A stretch of DNA of 64,000 nucleotides from Neelides folsomi (lineage: Eukaryota > Arthropoda > Collembola > Neelipleona > Neelidae), in the NCBI GenBank assembly GCA_034687125.1, contig JAQGBZ010000191.1, positions 56,449 through 120,448 of the forward strand, read 5' to 3'. Under the pieces are notes generated by a model. It was not told where the DNA came from and searched no databases. It worked only from the letters and a program-made list of their open reading frames with translations. Positions within the stretch are counted from its first letter, which is position 1; each line of letters opens with the position of its first letter. Of the stretch, positions 13,701-43,853 are shown piece after piece. A program made the position numbers and the translations under genes.

Positions 13701-16700
13701 GGCCGGAGAGGGTGCCCTTATCTCCTGGTTTTCCGGCATGATTTGTCGGCACACATTCGAGATCCACTCCAACGATTTCCAAATACAGATCAGAGCTAAT
13801 CTCTATCAAACCCTCTGTCAATATTGTCCCTCGAGAGTTTCAGGCCCACATTTCCTCCTCGGTCCATGTGTCATTGGAGGGGAACGTGCCCGATCCTCCC
13901 AGGTAGGCTCATATTCATAGACTTATTTATCTCGCGTAATCCACACTCGGCGAGTGTCACTCAGTTGTTCGGCAGACTTTTACGAGAGAGTCACATTCTC
14001 CTTCCTTAATACCAGACAAAGAATGTGTATCTGTGGGTCTGAGGGGAGTCACGGCACCACACTTTCCGCCTCTTCCACAAACCCAACACTCGCCGAGAGA
14101 CGAGGAGTTGGTGAGGTGAACCATTTGATCGATACCCTCTCGTGAATTAATTATGTGTGGGGAAGTCAAAGGACATTATTATGACCCGTCCTCACCTCCT
14201 TCTCTTTTCTCTGCTGCTTCTCCAAGGTTCAGAGACCCTTCACCCCCACGCCCCACTCACTCCCTATTTGTTACAGCGGGCGGCTCTGACTTCGTTCAAT
14301 TGGATCTCTTCGACAGTCTTCATTTGCATAACAGTACCTACAAAGGGATCAGCCTCGGCTCTGGCGCTCACCGACTCACTCCTGGAGTCATCTTCACAGG
14401 TAACATCTTCCATTTTCTATTTACCACTCTATTTTCAAATACCCAAATTTAAGATTTAATCAGTGAAATAATTCACTTCAAATGACCAAATAACTATAAT
14501 ACTTAAAGTTAGATATCTAGAGATATCTAAGATATCTAGAGATTCAATATTATGCAATACACTATTGTCAGTATTACACATAAATATGAATCCATATATT
14601 GCCCTTATTTGCATACGTTTATATAAATAAAACCATTTTATAAAGTTTTATTTATCCAAATGAATTAACTCAATAAATGGGGCAAATAAAACTTTTTGAT
14701 TAAAATAAATATATATTCATAGGTTGTTTATTTATGTTTGGATACAAAAATCATTCTCTGTCAGCATTTGAGAAAGAAAGCTAGTAAACACTTTTATGTA
14801 TTTAGGAAAAAACCCAAACTACAAATACTTATATTATGCACATACATTTTTAAAATCTAATACCTTTGTATTTATACAATAAATAACTATTTACTATAAT
14901 CTAGTAACATATAACTGCATAGTATTACATACACAGATACATATAAAATACAATATGTAGTAAATAGTATTTAACCTGGAGTCAAAACTCAGATACTCAT
15001 GCATGTATTCACAAACATTAATTTCTCAGATTTTTCCATTAAAAAATTTTGAAAAGGATAATAATTGTATTTTCACAGGTGACTACCGCGAGATGATGAT
15101 GAGAGGAGACTGGGTCGACAAGATTCGTTCAACGTTGGCTGAAATTGGAGCCAACGAGTTCACGATCTCCGCGAACGTGAAGCAGAACCCGAACAATGTC
15201 GGGACGCTGCTCGCCTTCTCAAGAGACCTTTTTAGGTACGACTTCCCTCAATGATTGAATTTTTTTAATGTAAAGTGTGTGTCCAGTGCATTAGAGATCC
15301 AGTCGAGTGGTCGGAAGAATGAGTTGCGAGTCATTTCTGGCTCGACGGTCGAAACATTCCCATTCCGGTTGGCAGACGGAAGTTGGCACCGCCTGGCCAT
15401 TTCCTTCTCCGCCTCGCAAGTGGATATCCTAGTCGACTGCTCGCTGACGTACAGGCGGGTTCTTAAGTTCGACCCAACCACTGCCATCTTCGATACTAGG
15501 AACTTGTCCATTTGGATTGGTCAAAAGACCAATTCACACTTTCTCTACCAGGTGAGAGGTTTCTAAATGGGAGGACCGACTCTTGACATACAGCAATTTG
15601 AATTTAGGGGATTATGCAAGACTTGCAACTCACATTCGGTCCATATGGCTATTTGTCACAATGTCCACTAGTCGACAGCCAATGTCCAACATGCAGGGAA
15701 TTCACTGCCTTAAAAATGTCCTACGCATCTCTAGAATCGCAAATCCGGGCCCTCACCGAAAGAGTAAGTTGGATCAATTTAATCGTTTAATAAATCCAAC
15801 AGATACAAATATACACATACATACATATCATAGATCTAACTCAATGTCAAAACTCTCATACCAATACATTTGCCATTTAAATATAAAGAACAAACCAATA
15901 ATTTACAATTTGCACCTTATATTTGATAGAAAAAATAAAAAAATATTATAGTACACTTTTAGAATCATAGCATAAAATAGTAAAGTTTATAAAAATGATC
16001 TTTTGGTGTTTAATGAAGCTAATGAGAGCAGAGGCGCGGCTCACTAACGTAGAAGAATGCGAATGTCAAAAGTCTTGCCGTGTCAATGAGACGTCCTTGT
16101 TCAGCGACGGCTATACATGGCATCAAAACTGTGAAATATGCACTTGCAAAGTAAGGAATCCTCCATTTAGCCTTTGGACCTAAGTTCAAATCCCCCGTTG
16201 TTTCAGAGAGGAATTGTCGAGTGTGTGAAGGAGCCGTGTCCCGAGCCCACATGCAAAAACCCCGAACCGAGCCCTGGAGAGTGCTGTCCGACGTGCCTGA
16301 GTAAATCCCTCAACTTCCCTTAGCTAATCCCGCTCACGTTCCCCTTCTCGCAGAGCAATGCTTTTTCCGGGGGAGGATCTACGACCATGGGGAGTCTGAA
16401 CCCATGAAGGAATGCGTTGACTGCTACTGTAAAGACGGGTCTATGAAGTGCGACCGCCGCGACCCAGACAAATGCCCGCCCCTCTCCTGCCCGCCTTCGG
16501 AGCAAATCGTGGTGCCCGGGGAGTGCTGCAAAGTCTGCCCAGGTGAGTCGCCGATGATCATCATCATTTTCATCATGTTCTCGACATCAACGCATGTTTG
16601 ATCTCCAGGGACGGACTTCTGCTCGAGCGAGGGGCGGAAATGCCATGCCAACGCGACGTGTGTGAATCTCCAGACCATGTTCGCGTGCCAGTGCAGGGCT

Positions 16701-19700
16701 GGCTTCAGCGGGGATGGGCTGAAGAGCTGCGAAGACATCGACGAGTGCGGGTCAGACCGCAACCACTGCGCCGAACACACCCGGTGCGTCAACGAGGACG
16801 GCGGTTACCGATGCGAGTGCGAGAAGGGCTTCAGGGCTTTCAACGCTTTCCAGTGCGTGGACGCTGACGAGTGCGGGGAAGGCGGGCACGAGTGCGACCC
16901 CGCGGCCCGGTGCGAAAACACCCAAGGCTCCTACGCCTGCATCTGCGGGGCCGGGTACTCTGGGAACGGCCTCAAGTGCTCACGTAAGCACAATCCCCAT
17001 CTCGCATGCCACTTTGTGTGGGAAAGGGCCAGCACACCAAGTTTGTGCTCATTTCCTTATCGCTCAGATATTCAGCGAACGCGTGTATTTTTGTAATGAG
17101 GAAGGCAGGAATGTGGTGAGCATAGGGAATAAATATGGAATGGTTTTTCTGTCTCAGCGATCTGCAACCGGAGTTGTGAGAACGGGGGTCTCTGCGTCGG
17201 GCCGAATGTGTGCTCGTGTCGGGCGGGGTGGACAGGCCCTTACTGTGAGACTGATGTGGACGAGTGTGGAGAAGATCCGCCAGCGGACTCCTCCGGCCCC
17301 CTCTGTCCCCCCGACGCCTTCTGTGTGAACAAACCCGGTTGGTACTTGTGCCAGTGCAGGGATGGATTCGTCGCCAAAACTGTTGAGAGTGGCCAGGCTC
17401 AGTGCCAAGGTATGCTCTCTATTTATTTTCCTTCCCAGTAAGACCCTTAACTGCACAAGGATCAACAAGGCCCAGACGCCCCTCAGACCAGACATAATGG
17501 ATAGATGAACGCCGACTTGGCTCGAATGTCACGTTTGCTCAACATTCCTCCTCGGATCCTCTATTTGCTTTAATTCCTCCTAATTTCCACAAAAGTACTT
17601 ATTGCCTCTCAAACTCTTCTCCTCCCTACAGACATTGACGAATGCGAAAAAGCCCCTTGTGGCCCGGAATTACAATGCTTTAACACTCACGGTTCCTATG
17701 AATGTCATTGCCGAAAAGGGAGTTCGGGAGAATGCTCTTCAGGTAAAACAGTTGCTCATTTACTCTCATCAATTCCATACTCAACATTATCAACCAGACC
17801 GCAATTAGGGATTAAACAATTCCCAATGTACTTAACATGTAGTTTTTACATAAATGATTCCCAATGTGCTGATGTCAAATTTCACATTTTCAGGTTGCAT
17901 TGAGGATGGAATTATTCATGCTCTTGGCTCAAATTGGTTTAGTCAAGAATGTCATATTTGTAATTGCACGTCCCCCGGGGTCGTGTCGTGCGTGGTCGTC
18001 GAGGGCGAAGGTTCCTGCCCCCATCTTTGCCCCTCCGACTCTGCAAATAGTGTTGAAGAGGACGCAGGGAGAAGGTGCTGCGCGTCTTGCGGCCAAAACT
18101 CCTCAACCTCAGCGAAAAGTGTTCAGAATAAAACTTGTCGCCACCAGAAATACCCTCAGTTGATCTATGAGTCAGGTAAATGCGAACATGGACGAGGTCC
18201 GGGATTGCTAATGAGTCTTTTCCAGGTGAGAAGTGGTACTACGATTGCAAGCTCTGCGAGTGCTTGGACGGAGAAGTGGATTGTTGGACCTATGAATGTC
18301 CGCCCCTCGACTGCCACAATCCTCAAGTACTGGAGGGCGAATGCTGTGCTCATTGCCCTCACGATGGGTCTTCGGACAACTGCCATTGGCACCGGAACAG
18401 TTCCTCTTCTGAGTGTCACATCATCGACAACCATATCACCGTGGAGTCGGGGGCCCGCGTCATCCTCCCACATAATAACTGCATTTCCTGCAAGTGCCAG
18501 GTAACGTCACTCCTGTCTCAATACCATCATATTTCCCACAAATACCTGAAGGTTTATTAAGAATTCGACACCGAGGAGAATGCCAAGTCCTCTGAAAATA
18601 TTCCACTTAATCCGATTAGATTAACATCTAACGCCTCCTGGGGTCTGGTAATATACACAAAATGAGTTACTCGGTCTATGACTTTGTGTGTACACGAACT
18701 CAATTTTTTATTATCTGATTGCTTGTTCTGACTTGGGATCAATTTATATATTAAGTTTACCCATCAGAATGTTGAATGCGATTTTTTGAAATAAGAATCG
18801 AATGTTTGCAAGTTGATTCAACTCAAATGTACTATATATAAATGTGCACATCAAACCCATTTGTTATGATAATGATAAAACCCTGATTTGGTGCTTATTT
18901 TTTTAGTGTGAATACTTTTCATTTTTCAACTTATTCATAAACATAGATGAGAAATTAACAATGAGGATGTATAATAGATAATTTAAGAATTTAACATGTT
19001 GACTAATCTCTCTGTTGTAACCCATTAACCTGAACAGGTGCCGCTCTGCGCTAAATTGGTGAGCAAAAATGATGGATTTTGTGTGCTTCGGTAATTGATT
19101 TTTAATTTTATCTCACGTTTCAACATTTGAGTTGCCATGTTCGAATGTTCCTATTTATATAAAATAATATATACTTTTGGGGGGGAGGGAGCTGGAGGGT
19201 CAGTCCAGAATTTCACCTAACTTTGAATCAAGGCTCTATGTGTATCTCTCTGTTACTCTCTTTTGTACTTCTATGAATATATCATTGTGTGTAAATTTCC
19301 CTGCACCCCTCACGCTATTCTCCATTCGGAGATAGAGATGAAAAGATCAGCGGTGATTCAATAATCAAATCCCCCTTTTGGTTTCTTTCCTTGTGCCTGC
19401 ATTCACACTCCGCTTCCTCACTGTATGAAGGGTGCACGAAAATCCCAAACTAACTTTCCACCAAATTCTTTATTTATTGGTCCTCTTATGTGTAAACTTC
19501 TTCAAAATTTGCATGAGGAATTTCTCACACATGGAATCGTGTTCATTTGCTATTACATGTTATTTCTTGCGGTGTTCCTACCAACGTACTTCCTCCTCTT
19601 TACACGGCTCAATGTCCAATTTAAGAGTAATAAATGAAGGGATTTAAGGTTGAACCGAATTCCTCAATGGCTTCATTGCACTTAATATGCATTAAGAAAT

Positions 19701-38300: not shown

Positions 38301-40929
38301 AGGACCTCGCGTTGGTTCGGGGTTTCTTGATTACAATTGCTTTCCTTCCTTGGAGAAAGAACATTTTGGAAATGAATGTTCACTTGGAAAGAATAATGTG
38401 TAAAAGCGAAGGTTGAGGTCCCTGAAGTTTGTATTAAACCATGCAGGGTATGTACATTGGGATGTCTGTGGAATAAATAAGGACCAAGACGGGCCATGAC
38501 TCTGCACTATCTTAAATTGGATCGTGGGTGAATATGGGGGCAATCTTCGAAATTGACCCGTGTGTGGAAGTAGAGGTCATTGAGGAGCGAGCGTAAGGAA
38601 CTCATTAGCTCGTCCCATGAGAGAAACCTCCTTCTCTCTCCATTAATATGATCGTAAAGGCATAGAATATCAATCGACGAGTTGAGGCATAAAATCGTAA
38701 TCGTCGGTAATTGTTCTGCGGCCCTTCATGAGCTCCACCCATGCAAGTGGGGGAACACACCGAGACGACAATTTCCCTTGTTGGAGAAGACGGAGGAGAC
38801 CGTGACGGATTGTGAGGAGCCTAATGGCCGAATCCAATCATCTCAAGGGGACCCTCACGAGGAAGACCCGAAAAACGGACATTTCCACTTCTCATCCTCC
38901 ATGTGGTCTCTGCTGCATGGAGGAGGCCAAGTGGAGCACCTTACACACCGCTTCGAATCAAAGTCCCACATTGTGGCTCTTCATCCCAATGAATAAGAGC
39001 AAAGGGAGAGGCTCGACGACTGCCAGCCCTTTTTGTTTAAATGAGAAAGAATTCCATTTTCCACCACTCTCCCACCTTCATTGTAATCAAATGCATCAAA
39101 AATTGCCTACAATACCTTTCTTCCCTTTTTTAGGGTTCTAAAGATGGGGCAAACTCGAGCTCTCCTGGAAAGCATCTTTTGTCATTTTCATCGACTTCCA
39201 TCCGCTCTCAATTAGTTCCTCTCCCCATTGTCTTCTTCTTCATGAGTCACGAAAAGCCAAAGTTCTTAAATATTATATACAATAAAACTTACTCACTCCA
39301 ATTATTTATACTTATCATTCCCTTTACATGCCTCTGACTCCTAATAAAAGAAAAAAGCTTAATAACAGAGGTAACAAAGAATCCACATTTAATTATATTA
39401 ATCAACTATATTATATTTACTGTACATATTTTTAAAATGGAACTGTATCATTAAGTACCATCTCCAACTGTACTCTTATTTTTCCTACATGTATGCTGTC
39501 ACTCGGAATCAAATCTAAATAAATTAATCAATTGACCCTATAAGTATTTATTATACTACATTTGTAACATTGGATATGTACAATATATTAATTCAATTAG
39601 TAAGTATTTCTAAAATTAATTTAAATTGAACATTGAGCCATATTAATTATTTCATACACGTCGTTATAAATAGGTAGTTGTTTCTATGAGACATTTGATA
39701 TATGATGATAAAAAATAAATATCAGATAAAGATTCTCATGTTCTCCTTGAGCAGAAACTTCTTGTAGCGTGGTTAATGTCAAATAAAAACCCAAACCGAG
39801 TTCTTTGTTCGGATTTAGTAATGATGAGAGAAGTAATGAGGATTTGCATCGCTCTGGTAGTTTTTACTGTTTTTTAAAAGGCGCCATTGTCTTGAGAGGT
39901 CGTAGACATGTCATGAGGAAACTATATGTCTCTCGTGAGTCAAAATTAGAGCCAATAAAAGAGTTTACAATTTTTTGTTCGTCTGTGAGACATTATTGTT
40001 CGTGAGAAGTTGGGCCAAGGGGCGAGTTTATTATTATTAAACGACCATCTCGGCCACTACAGGCCCTTGAGTGCCAAGGGGTTGTTGAGTGATGCAGGAG
40101 CAATGATGTGGAGATGGTGTGATGGAAAACAAGACATTACACCTAAACACTCATTCTTTTCCTCCTACCCTCAATGGAGAACAAAATGAGCCGGCATTTA
40201 CTTCTCAAGACCCTCGAGAGCGGAGAGGGAAATTTCTCCGGGCCAGAACGAGGCTCACATTCAGTTCACGTCCGAGGAAAACGATAATGTGCTCTCTTCG
40301 CCACTTTGGTCCCTCAAGACTGCTCTGGGTGTAGAAACCTCTTTCCCTCTCTATCACAATTTAATGGATGTGTATTTGTATCTCTGTGCATGTGTGTGGA
40401 TTGCGTAAGCATTTATGCGTCTGAGGCCGGTTGGCCAAAATGTGTTGTTCAACCCTTTGTGTGTGAGTGTGTTGGAACACAATACTTTGTAGGAAATCCG
40501 CTCCTCATTCTCCATCCTCAAAACTGGAGGGATGAAAGGAGATGTGTGAGCCACAATCCCATTGTGGGGAAAGAAGGAATCGCAGATGAAGACTCGTGAG
40601 GGCATTCAGAGCTTACAAAGGCCATTCGTGACTTTGTGTTAAATTGATAATAGGGTGAGAAATTGAAATTAATCGTCGTTTCTCTCCAATCCCCTCCCTC
40701 ACCACCCTTCACATTTTTCCCATTGAGGAACTTTCCTCACTCACCCTTAATAGTTTTTTAATTCAGAATCTATATCTGTAATCCGATGTTTGACTCCATT
40801 ACCTACAAATCCTGTCCAGTCAATTTCAGTTTAATTAAATCTCGATCTCTTGGTATAGCCATAGAATACCAAGTTCAGACTCCTAGAGCTATTACATAAA
40901 ATCTAATCCATGTCCAAGCTGGGAGTCTA
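32373..40929. other. Gene-poor stretch downstream of the DSTYK promoter
   Basis: 32,373 to about 32,600 should contain the DSTYK promoter and 5' UTR. After that I find no supported gene. 33,000-37,200 is strongly AT-rich, with a small hairpin at 34769-34801 (arms GCAATTAGTG). Islands of higher GC lie at roughly 37,780-39,250 and 39,980-40,760; their ORFs lack family motifs. Confidence 0.55.
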
Positions 40930-41855
40930 AAATGTTAGCGTAATACATAATAGGGTAAATACAAAATGGCGTAATTGTCTAGGCGTAATATTAATATGGC
41001 TTAAGTAAATAATGGCGTAATGTTAATATAGCTTAAGTATTTAATAGCTTAATATTAATATAGCGTAAGTATTTAATGGCTTAATATTAATATAACTTAT
41101 GTATTAAATGGCGTAGTATTATAATGGCGTAAGTATTTAATAGCTTTGGACTTTAATAACGTAAATATTTTATAGCCTAAATATTCACTGTATTTAATAG
41201 CGTATAGAATTATTTAGCGTACGTATTTTATAGCGTAAAATTCACATTCAAATTAATAATAATGATAAAGGTAAAACTTCATTTTCAACAATTTTAGATG
41301 ATTTACATCTTGCTAAACACGAACTATTGGATTGAATGCAAGGCTTATGAATTGTGGCTTTGTAATTGTAATCTTTACTATTATAAAGGTACCCTTCGTG
41401 AACTAATTGAATTCCCCTTCATATATTTATGAAGTTCTTGACCTCAACCTTTTCATGGTCAATAAATATCAGTTATATAAATAATAAATTAATATTATGG
41501 AAATTAGAGGGAATTTCTTTGTTTATTCTTATTTAACTTATTTAACTTCATTCATGTTTTCATGAATAAATACATTGGTTTAAAAGAGGCTTTAAATTTA
41601 TATAGAAAAGCTTACATTCAATGTTTAATATTTAGATAAGATACAAAGATACAATACAAAGACAAAGTTAAATAATTTACCTTCTTAAAATGCAATATAT
41701 AACGTTAATCTAAAACTTACGTTGCTTTAATATTAAGCTATAAAATATTTACGTCATTAAAGTTCAAAGCTATTAAATACTTAAGCTATAGCGCTATTAC
41801 GCCTAGACAATTACGCCATTTTGTATTTACCCTATTATGTATTACGCTAACATTT
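40930..41855. mobile_element. 926-bp DNA element with perfect 61-bp TIRs and subterminal GCGTAA/GCTTAA array
   Basis: 40930-40990 and 41795-41855 are exact reverse complements over 61 bp, starting AAATGTTAGCGTAATACATA, and both are flanked by TA (40928-40929 and 41856-41857). Inside the left TIR is a degenerate array of about ten copies of a unit near GCTTAAGTATTTAATAGC (about 40,990-41,230). The right side has a shorter version of the same sequence (41,700-41,795). The central 41,280-41,690 is unique and has no ORF. It is non-autonomous; the superfamily is not recognised. Confidence 0.85.
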
Positions 41856-43185
41856 TATGTTCCCTCCAAGCCAATGCATTGCACTACGTATAGCATTGTA
41901 CTAGATATATACATAGCACTACTTACTTTTAGTGTATGGACATGGAATTTACATTTAATATATGCACCTATGTAATGCTAACCTATGTCCTGATCGGATC
42001 TCGGATATGTACATATGTGTATATGAGATGTTCCATTTTGAGTCATCTGGTTCACGTCATTCTTCGAAGGGAGACTTTTGATGCACACAATGAATATTTG
42101 CCATTTGAAAGTAATCCTTTGAAATAATATTCAATTTCTCCGACTCCGTGAACATGTTTAATATTTCAATATGTATCTATTCCGAGTCCAGGAGGGTCTT
42201 TGATTTGACAAGGAAACGAGAGAGGGTTCCTTCTTGATCAAATAAAGATGCACTACGGAACGCTGTCATGCATAGAGAACGAGGAGGACGCATAGGGAGG
42301 GGATCCGCCAACAACTTCCACTTCACCCCAAATCGCATATTAATTGTCGAATAAATCCCATTTCTCTCCTCTCATCAGACTTGAGTTTAATCTCATTTCC
42401 AGCTTAATCAAAATCGCGACAACTCTCATCATCCTCCCATTAAAATCAATTTTGGCATTTCCATTTCTTCAATTCGTTTATCCTCTCCAAGGCGGTCGTG
42501 CCGGTTGAACAGAGGCAATTTGTCCAAAGCTCTCTTCAAACGGAGAAACTCCGAAGACGAGAGTTGGGAAAGAGAATTGGGATGGGAGAATCCCATCAGA
42601 GGCGAAAGGAGGAGTTTCATCATCGCTGATGGAGAAAGTATTTAATGGACAAGCAATGAAGCCGACTGTAAAATAATATTCGTAAAGATGAAGGCGGATG
42701 GATGAACTGCAATGCGACACTCGCAAGAGTAAACTCGTTACTTTGAACAACATTCCAATTAAATGCGGTCCAGATCTCAACATTGAATGACCCTCGAGCT
42801 AAGCTAATCTCCATTCGCCTTCCTCCCCGCCTCCGTCCGCCTTTATGAAATGAACAATTTAACCATCACCCACTCGCATCGTTCTTCCCGCAATATCTTT
42901 AATTGGCTCTTCGTCTACATTAATGACCATTTGTATGCCAGTTCCAGGCCCAAACTGTCCAGTTTCCCATTCTGGTCGGCCGAGGGGAGCTTCCCGTTTA
43001 AATGTCTCCTCCAGCCAAACACGTTATTTTTTTACAAATAAACATGCCCCAATTTGTTTCTTTTACGCCTTCCTTAAAAGAAAATACAGATTTAAGCTTT
43101 TAGACAAACACGACTTTATTGCAAGGAAAAGAAAAATGAGGGTATATTTCGCAGACATTTGACCCTTGCATTATATAGCCAAGTA
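41856..43185. other. Intergenic sequence
   Basis: A GC-raised island from about 42,130 to 43,060 has no convincing ORF or splice-bounded exon. Flanks are AT-rich. Nothing else is supported. Confidence 0.5.
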
Positions 43186-43689: not shown

Positions 43690-43853
43690 CCGAACTTATT
43701 CGAATAGTAGCCCGGGCTACTATTTAAATTTTGACCTCCGAGGGTGGGCTACTATTCGAGGTGGGCTACTATTTCTTTATTTGCCCCAGAGACTGGGCTA
43801 CTATTCGAGGCTAGGCTACTATTCGAGGTAGGCTACTATTCGAATAAGTTCGG
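43690..43853. mobile_element. 164-bp MITE with internal GGGCTACTATTCGAGG repeats
   Basis: Perfect 23-bp inverted ends, starting CCGAACTTATTCGAATAG, are flanked by TA on each side (43688-43689 and 43854-43855). The interior repeats the GGCTACTATTCGAGG end motif several times (about 43,744-43,842), so the element consists largely of copies of its own end. The open frame reading across it is a consequence of the repeat. Confidence 0.8.

Follow-up and report, generated by a model that had tools for sequence, protein, structure and literature searches.

A probable Mutator-type Foldback family with unequal outer motifs and a variable 16-bp arm array in the collembolan Neelides folsomi

Tm1, a Mutator/Foldback family of root-knot nematodes described by Gross and Williamson, has composite arms in which a conserved motif is combined with variable short tandem units, most often of 14 bp (PMC3169594). 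According to the same account, its outer motifs of 7 bp lie outside the inverted repeat and differ between the two ends, its target-site duplication (TSD) is mostly 9 bp (8–10 bp) without a target consensus, and MITE-like copies make up the majority class, with a FLYWCH-MULE transposase found in a longer relative (PMC3169594). The Muta families of Aedes aegypti are reported to have TSDs of 8–9 bp without preference, and 12 of the 14 families have terminal inverted repeats (TIRs) of more than 100 bp, ten of those with subterminal tandem repeats of 9–15 bp; their derivatives vary in repeat number and have heterogeneous interiors, and Muta1, which is intact and active in yeast, was termed a type 2 Foldback element (PMC5225508). 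For Mutator-like elements (MULEs) in general, Dupeyron and colleagues give TSDs of 8–11 bp, and for the animal-hosted Phantom clade, some members of which carry a FLYWCH domain, TSDs of 8–10 bp where given and TIRs of 18–613 bp or none (PMC6446971). Tetris, a Foldback element of Drosophila virilis, carries a tandem array of units of about 220 bp inside its long TIR and has TSDs of 8–10 bp, and the description of it reports no autonomous copy (PMC4079207).

The window analyzed here is a 64,000-bp stretch of the N. folsomi genome (G000:C191:56449-120448), and the assembly searched comprises 75.1 Mb in 840 contigs. One DNA search of this genome with the element found in the window returned 98 matching pieces on 26 contigs, corresponding to at least 24 family loci, among them the window copy and two loci (on C235 and C40) with scarcely more than a tip, and to two diverged relatives on C71 and C354. 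A sequence-only reading of the window had expected a multi-copy element, and its view of a mobile, non-autonomous element with an arm array changing in copy number proved correct. Both ends are present in 16 of the 24 family loci, and the TSD and tip counts given here omit the other eight, which have a single end, the second being absent or cut off where the contig stops. The genomic copies set the window element at 40921–41864 (944 bp). That reading had placed the ends at 40930 and 41855 and had named copies ending elsewhere as the result that would refute it; the similarity among the fetched copies extends 9 bp past these positions on each side. Because of this displacement the TSD was hidden and TA was mistaken for the target: the supposed TA flanks lie inside the element, and the duplication outside the true ends is 8 bp long, on which grounds Tc1/mariner and Stowaway elements, with their TA target, were rejected.

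The left flank of the window copy (TCCAAGCT, 40913–40920, plus strand) and the right flank (TCCAAGCC, 41865–41872, plus strand) match at seven of eight positions, the 8-bp length having been established by flank comparison over the 16 two-ended copies. Fourteen of these have at most one mismatch between their flanks (eight perfect, six with one), L011 has two mismatches, and L014 has no TSD, with 6/8 positions mismatched. As a control, left and right flanks from different copies were paired, and none of 240 such pairs had one mismatch or fewer. The mean flank match over the 16 copies was 0.89 at a length of 8, compared to 0.20–0.34 at lengths of 4–7 and 9–13. The target of the family is an 8-bp duplication without an evident consensus.

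A comparison of filled and empty sites had been proposed to define the target duplication; element-free paralogues were found for one copy, L012, while the TSD itself was set from the flanks of the 16 copies. The joined flanks of L012 match five paralogous places without the element over positions 1–271 of 271 at 87–94% identity, these places spanning 270–284 bases, and matches on C55 (1–270, 74%) and C102 (1–216, 88%) likewise cross the junction at base 102. These sites are known from match spans and not from letters, and the spans do not fix the exact junction base; L065, a distant paralogue whose letters were read, aligns across the junction at 73%. L012 was found to have inserted into a different dispersed repeat, in one of its two inverted arms, which are about 230 bp long; this repeat is seen at L065:1314-1539 and 2299-2526 and at other places matching the L012 flanks, and several contigs carry paired plus- and minus-strand matches of this host repeat a few hundred bases apart. 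Other copies are unusual in themselves. L014 (C279:78436-80039), which lacks a TSD, is 1604 bp long with additional interior and may have arisen by recombination between two copies. L022:2330-2990 (C363:6929-7589) is normal at its ends, with a TSD free of mismatches, but its interior is unlike that of other copies; parts of this interior recur in 16 additional rows, on 15 other contigs, at 68–91% identity, so that it holds another repeat. Facing tips with one mismatch each, 204 bp apart end to end at C132:102714-102917, perhaps represent a very short relative.

In the arms of the family, a tip is followed by a 16-bp array and then by a common inner anchor, on both sides. Self-comparison of the window copy identified an exact inverted repeat at 40928–40990 (plus strand) and 41795–41857 (minus strand); the perfect TIRs reported earlier are therefore real, with a length of 63 bp and not 61 bp. 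Outside it, comparison of the copies delimited the left outer motif GGGAGTCT (40921–40928, plus strand) and the right outer motif (41857–41864, minus strand), which reads GGGAACAT inward where the common family form is GGGAGCAT. The left subterminal array of 16/32-bp units, defined by TRF and arm measurement, occupies 40982–41185 (plus strand; TRF score 208 over 40982–41141). The anchor common to both arms, which forms the inner part of the long TIR, lies at 41139–41164 (plus strand) on the left and at 41749–41774 (minus strand) on the right, where a shortened, residual array occupies 41775–41794 (minus strand). No match to Rfam was found in the window, and a plasmid collection gave no match.

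Among the 16 copies, the anchor could be recognized in 13 left and 10 right arms, and in these its distance from the tip ranged over 138–218 bp on the left and 76–186 bp on the right. Fifteen of the 23 arm lengths equal 10 modulo 16 (Rayleigh P ~1e-5, for arms that are non-independent through common ancestry), and among periods of 10–23 the strongest periodicity in these related arms is 16. The comparison of array lengths suggested by the earlier reading thus gives 16-bp steps in both arms, and this ladder over 23 arms constitutes a variable tandem array of the Foldback type. The surplus of repeat units noted in the left arm of the window copy is genuine, with a tip-to-anchor distance of 218 bp on the left versus 90 bp on the right. 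Its left arm is the longest of the 13 measured, and a 32-bp stretch of it is half present in L009 and absent from the other 11 aligned copies. Its right arm is the second-shortest of ten, eight of the other nine measuring 106–186 bp. Since the left arm is the longest and the right one shortened, the asymmetry looks like a gain on the left together with a loss on the right, and the proposed one-sided expansion describes only half of it. No significant concerted evolution between the two arms was seen when all 16 copies were taken together (fraction 0.16); the value of 0.0056 in nine copies chosen afterwards as undamaged is a hint only.

The two ends of the family differ in their outermost bases. 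The left outer motif is found in 13 of the 16 two-ended copies, with single-base variants in three, and the common right motif is likewise found in 13, with GGGAACAT in two and GGGAGCGT in one. Within the outer 8 bp the two ends agree at five to six positions. At position 7, left and right differ in all 16 copies (C versus A, or G in L019), as they do in the distant relative L067; at position 6 they differ in 15 copies. This constant difference in the outer motif beside near-identical inner tips is the most interesting feature of the family. It is conceivable, and we offer it tentatively, that each end plays its own part in transposition and that the array provides tunable transposase-binding sites, with each arm shifting independently. 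If this were so, a single genome would hold a natural series relating array length to the success of a Foldback transposon.

The exactness of the TIRs had been taken to suggest recent activity. In an alignment of 13 copies (L019, L020 and L026 were too short to include), the mean pairwise identity was 0.963 and 0.969 for the two tips, 0.87–0.89 for the arrays and 0.745 for the interior, so the tips are common to subfamilies with diverged interiors. The interior of the window copy is 93–95% identical to that of five copies (a difference of 5–7%), 87% to L017, 80% to L014 and 51–69% to five others. As the tips are conserved across the family, the exact TIRs of the window copy do not date it; moreover, its TSD and its right outer motif each carry one change, the latter from the common form and shared with L020. 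The identical arm run is longer in L009, at 97 bp from position 9 compared to 62 bp in the window copy, and the TSD of L009 is perfect. A recent burst is unsupported, the tips having stayed conserved while the interiors diverged. No site with the family's own tips beside a transposase gene was found in this assembly, and present mobility is therefore unsupported as well.

The earlier finding that no transposase is present stands insofar as the window element contains no open reading frame of 120 aa or more, and is qualified by a short, decayed transposase remnant. A piece from the FLYWCH region of L067, a relative bearing the same type of ends, matches 8 of the 16 copies in reversed orientation, with scores of 25.8–29.6 bits in seven sister copies and 20.4 bits in the window copy (41263–41337, minus strand). 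Against 200 order-1 Markov resamples of L009, which reached 19.6 bits at best (median 13.1), the window remnant is barely above the control. The other eight copies have no remnant above the control, five scoring 12.7–14.6 bits and three giving no row. In addition, DNA just upstream of the FLYWCH-like frame of L067 matches six copies (E 3e-6 to 0.018); in the window copy, this second remnant (41492–41541, minus strand) is about 80% identical to L067 over 51 columns (E 1e-5, search of 16 copies). In L011, the matches to L067 keep one order and one strand, apart from one weak exception (E 0.06) on the other strand. Because both the FLYWCH region and the DNA upstream of it match L067, the interior of the family may most simply be read as what an internal deletion spared of a FLYWCH-MULE gene, namely its 5′ end. 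The start of the gene lies at the CCT-type end in L067 and at the CAT-type end in the window family, opposite relative to the outer motifs; an exchange of ends is the only explanation we can offer, and we cannot otherwise explain the reversal.

L067 itself (C71:191896-193949, 2054 bp) is bounded by the tips GGGAGCCTAAAAT and GGGAACATCAAAT and by a perfect TSD of 8 bp (ATAAATAA twice); it has 16-bp arrays and arm pieces that are 82–85% complementary, with decayed ORF pieces between the arms. A search of the genome with a 107-aa piece returned 19 rows, one of them the piece itself, and its best other match (C423:44230-44538, 46% identity, E 9e-22) overlaps a PF10551 (MULE) match that is over the cut-off (E 8.6e-13), in a 508-aa frame that also holds a FLYWCH match. 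L067 thus carries pieces homologous to a MULE/FLYWCH ORF, yet three of its ORF pieces gave no Pfam match themselves at E ≤0.1. Positions 424–553 of L067:3897-5950 match a FLYWCH-bearing place on C119. In the Phantom/Muta/Tm1 group, a FLYWCH zinc finger would be expected N-terminal to the MULE domain; of the 18 PF10551 places in the genome, six (C423, C16, C38, C284, C91 and C130) have a FLYWCH match immediately upstream, and in the window family no more than a remnant of that region is kept. The open frame at G000:C423:44191-45060, with its FLYWCH and MULE matches, possibly encodes an intact transposase. At G000:C476:30086-30946, a FLYWCH match is found about 0.5 kb from a PF21787 (P-type) match on the same strand.

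Proximity to potential transposase genes was assessed with a pattern built on tip sequences from L067, C354 and the window family; it gave 97 sites in the genome versus 32 when reversed, 58 of the former lying outside the window family. With C71 omitted, six of 40 loci that show MULE, FLYWCH or L067-like coding have an inward-facing tip-like site within 4 kb, against 0.12 expected. Of these six, C613, C710 and C80 had entered the locus list via L067 queries and C119 by FLYWCH while matching L067 too, so that the test favors L067-like elements, L067 having both fed the list and shaped the pattern. For PF10551 matches alone, a tip-like site within 4 kb was found at 2 of 18. The search for an autonomous relative advised in the earlier reading accordingly had a divided outcome: no copy with the exact tips of the family carries a MULE transposase, and L067, with the matching end type, holds decayed MULE pieces.

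The ends, the TSD and the transposase-bearing relative place the element with Mutator/Foldback transposons, where it had previously been thought to fit no superfamily. The 8-bp TSD falls within the MULE range, and the TIR is long, with 63 bp exact and arms that reach the anchor 76–218 bp from the tip. We consider it very probable that the window element is a non-autonomous, MITE-like Mutator Foldback element, derived by internal deletion from a FLYWCH-MULE of Phantom/Muta/Tm1-like type and mobilized by a MULE transposase acting in trans. The likeness to Phantom, Muta and Tm1 comes from the pairing of FLYWCH with MULE at related loci, not from a phylogeny. In the proposed mechanism, internal deletion of such an element would have given rise to the non-autonomous family; the MULE transposase would bind the tip, and probably also the 16-bp units of the array, cut the element out and paste it with an 8-bp stagger. 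Array length would change by replication slippage or unequal exchange, and the outer motifs may differ as left and right ends are read differently.

Other sources of mobility were weighed against this reading. Merlin elements have 8–9 bp TSDs and GG-rich tips, and the genome contains 18 matches to PF12762, so that a non-autonomous Merlin element moved by the resident IS1595-type transposases has to be considered. One of these loci, C617, has a tip-like site with two mismatches 3.5 kb away (0.05–0.06 expected, P ~0.05), but this is only 1 of 18 loci compared to 6 of 40 for the MULE set, and both the MULE-related coding of L067, which has the same end type, and the resemblance of the remnant to the FLYWCH region of L067 argue against Merlin, which we regard as improbable. 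The corresponding count for hAT is 1 of 19 (C544, two mismatches, 2.7 kb away; again 0.05–0.06 expected, P ~0.05), and the family tips begin with GGGAG, which is presumably not a hAT form. Foldback anatomy does occur with P-type transposase (PMC3169594), as would befit an element like Galileo, a P-type Foldback, and the genome has 19 PF05699 matches and six PF21787 rows at five loci; none of the five P-type loci, however, lies within 4 kb of a tip-like site in lists compared by eye. A hAT- or P-derived Foldback element is thus even less probable than Merlin, and hAT, Merlin and P-type mobilizers are disfavored, as they are linked weakly or not at all to tip-like sites.

The remaining readings are the least probable of all. 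An unclassified, recently active element with a TA target and an expanding left array, as first proposed, would accord with the exact 63-bp arms and the additional left units, but it is refuted on ends and target by the 8-bp TSD and the outer motifs, and the right arm is shortened too while the tips are conserved across diverged copies. An equally slight chance is given to a satellite-like or recombinational repeat that is not a transposon: the 16-bp units are in tandem and Foldback elements can seed satellites, as reported for Tetris (PMC4079207), but the copies have defined ends, TSDs (14 of 16 copies) and element-free sites on dispersed contigs.

A Mutator/Foldback element derived from a FLYWCH-MULE compares closely with Tm1, sharing composite arms with unequal unit numbers in one copy, end-specific short outer motifs, a lack of target consensus, predominantly MITE-like copies and a longer relative with FLYWCH-MULE coding, here L067 with its decayed pieces; its unit is 16 bp instead of 14 bp, its TSD 8 bp instead of mostly 9 bp, and its motif sequences differ (PMC3169594). 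Membership in Tm1 proper was rejected on the outer motifs (GGGAGTCT/GGGAGCAT versus CGGTTAA/CCTACCC) and the TSD length. Muta1 is likened here by its description and not by motif letters, and it is intact (PMC5225508), whereas no intact element that shares the tips of the present family was found. Tetris shares the long TIR and internal array, with far longer units (PMC4079207). The family appears to be a new one of a known kind, with ordinary anatomy, and a literature search by topic, not by sequence similarity, found no report on a family with these motifs. It would apparently extend the animal Mutator/Foldback families by one in which the ends are asymmetric and the array slips; its 16 two-ended copies allow array lengths and transposase remnants to be compared. 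No long-standing question is settled by this element alone; it illustrates that an inverted-repeat element that looks unclassifiable becomes placeable once its copies fix the true ends.

Elsewhere in the window, tandem repeats of 49 and 17 bp resembling GGCTACTATTCGAGGCTA were found at 43714–43843. Frames at 1852–2364 and 16662–18504 give matches that point to an animal, to DNase II (E 3e-34) and calcium-binding EGF (E 4e-22), and a weak VWC match in these frames is below the curated cut-off.
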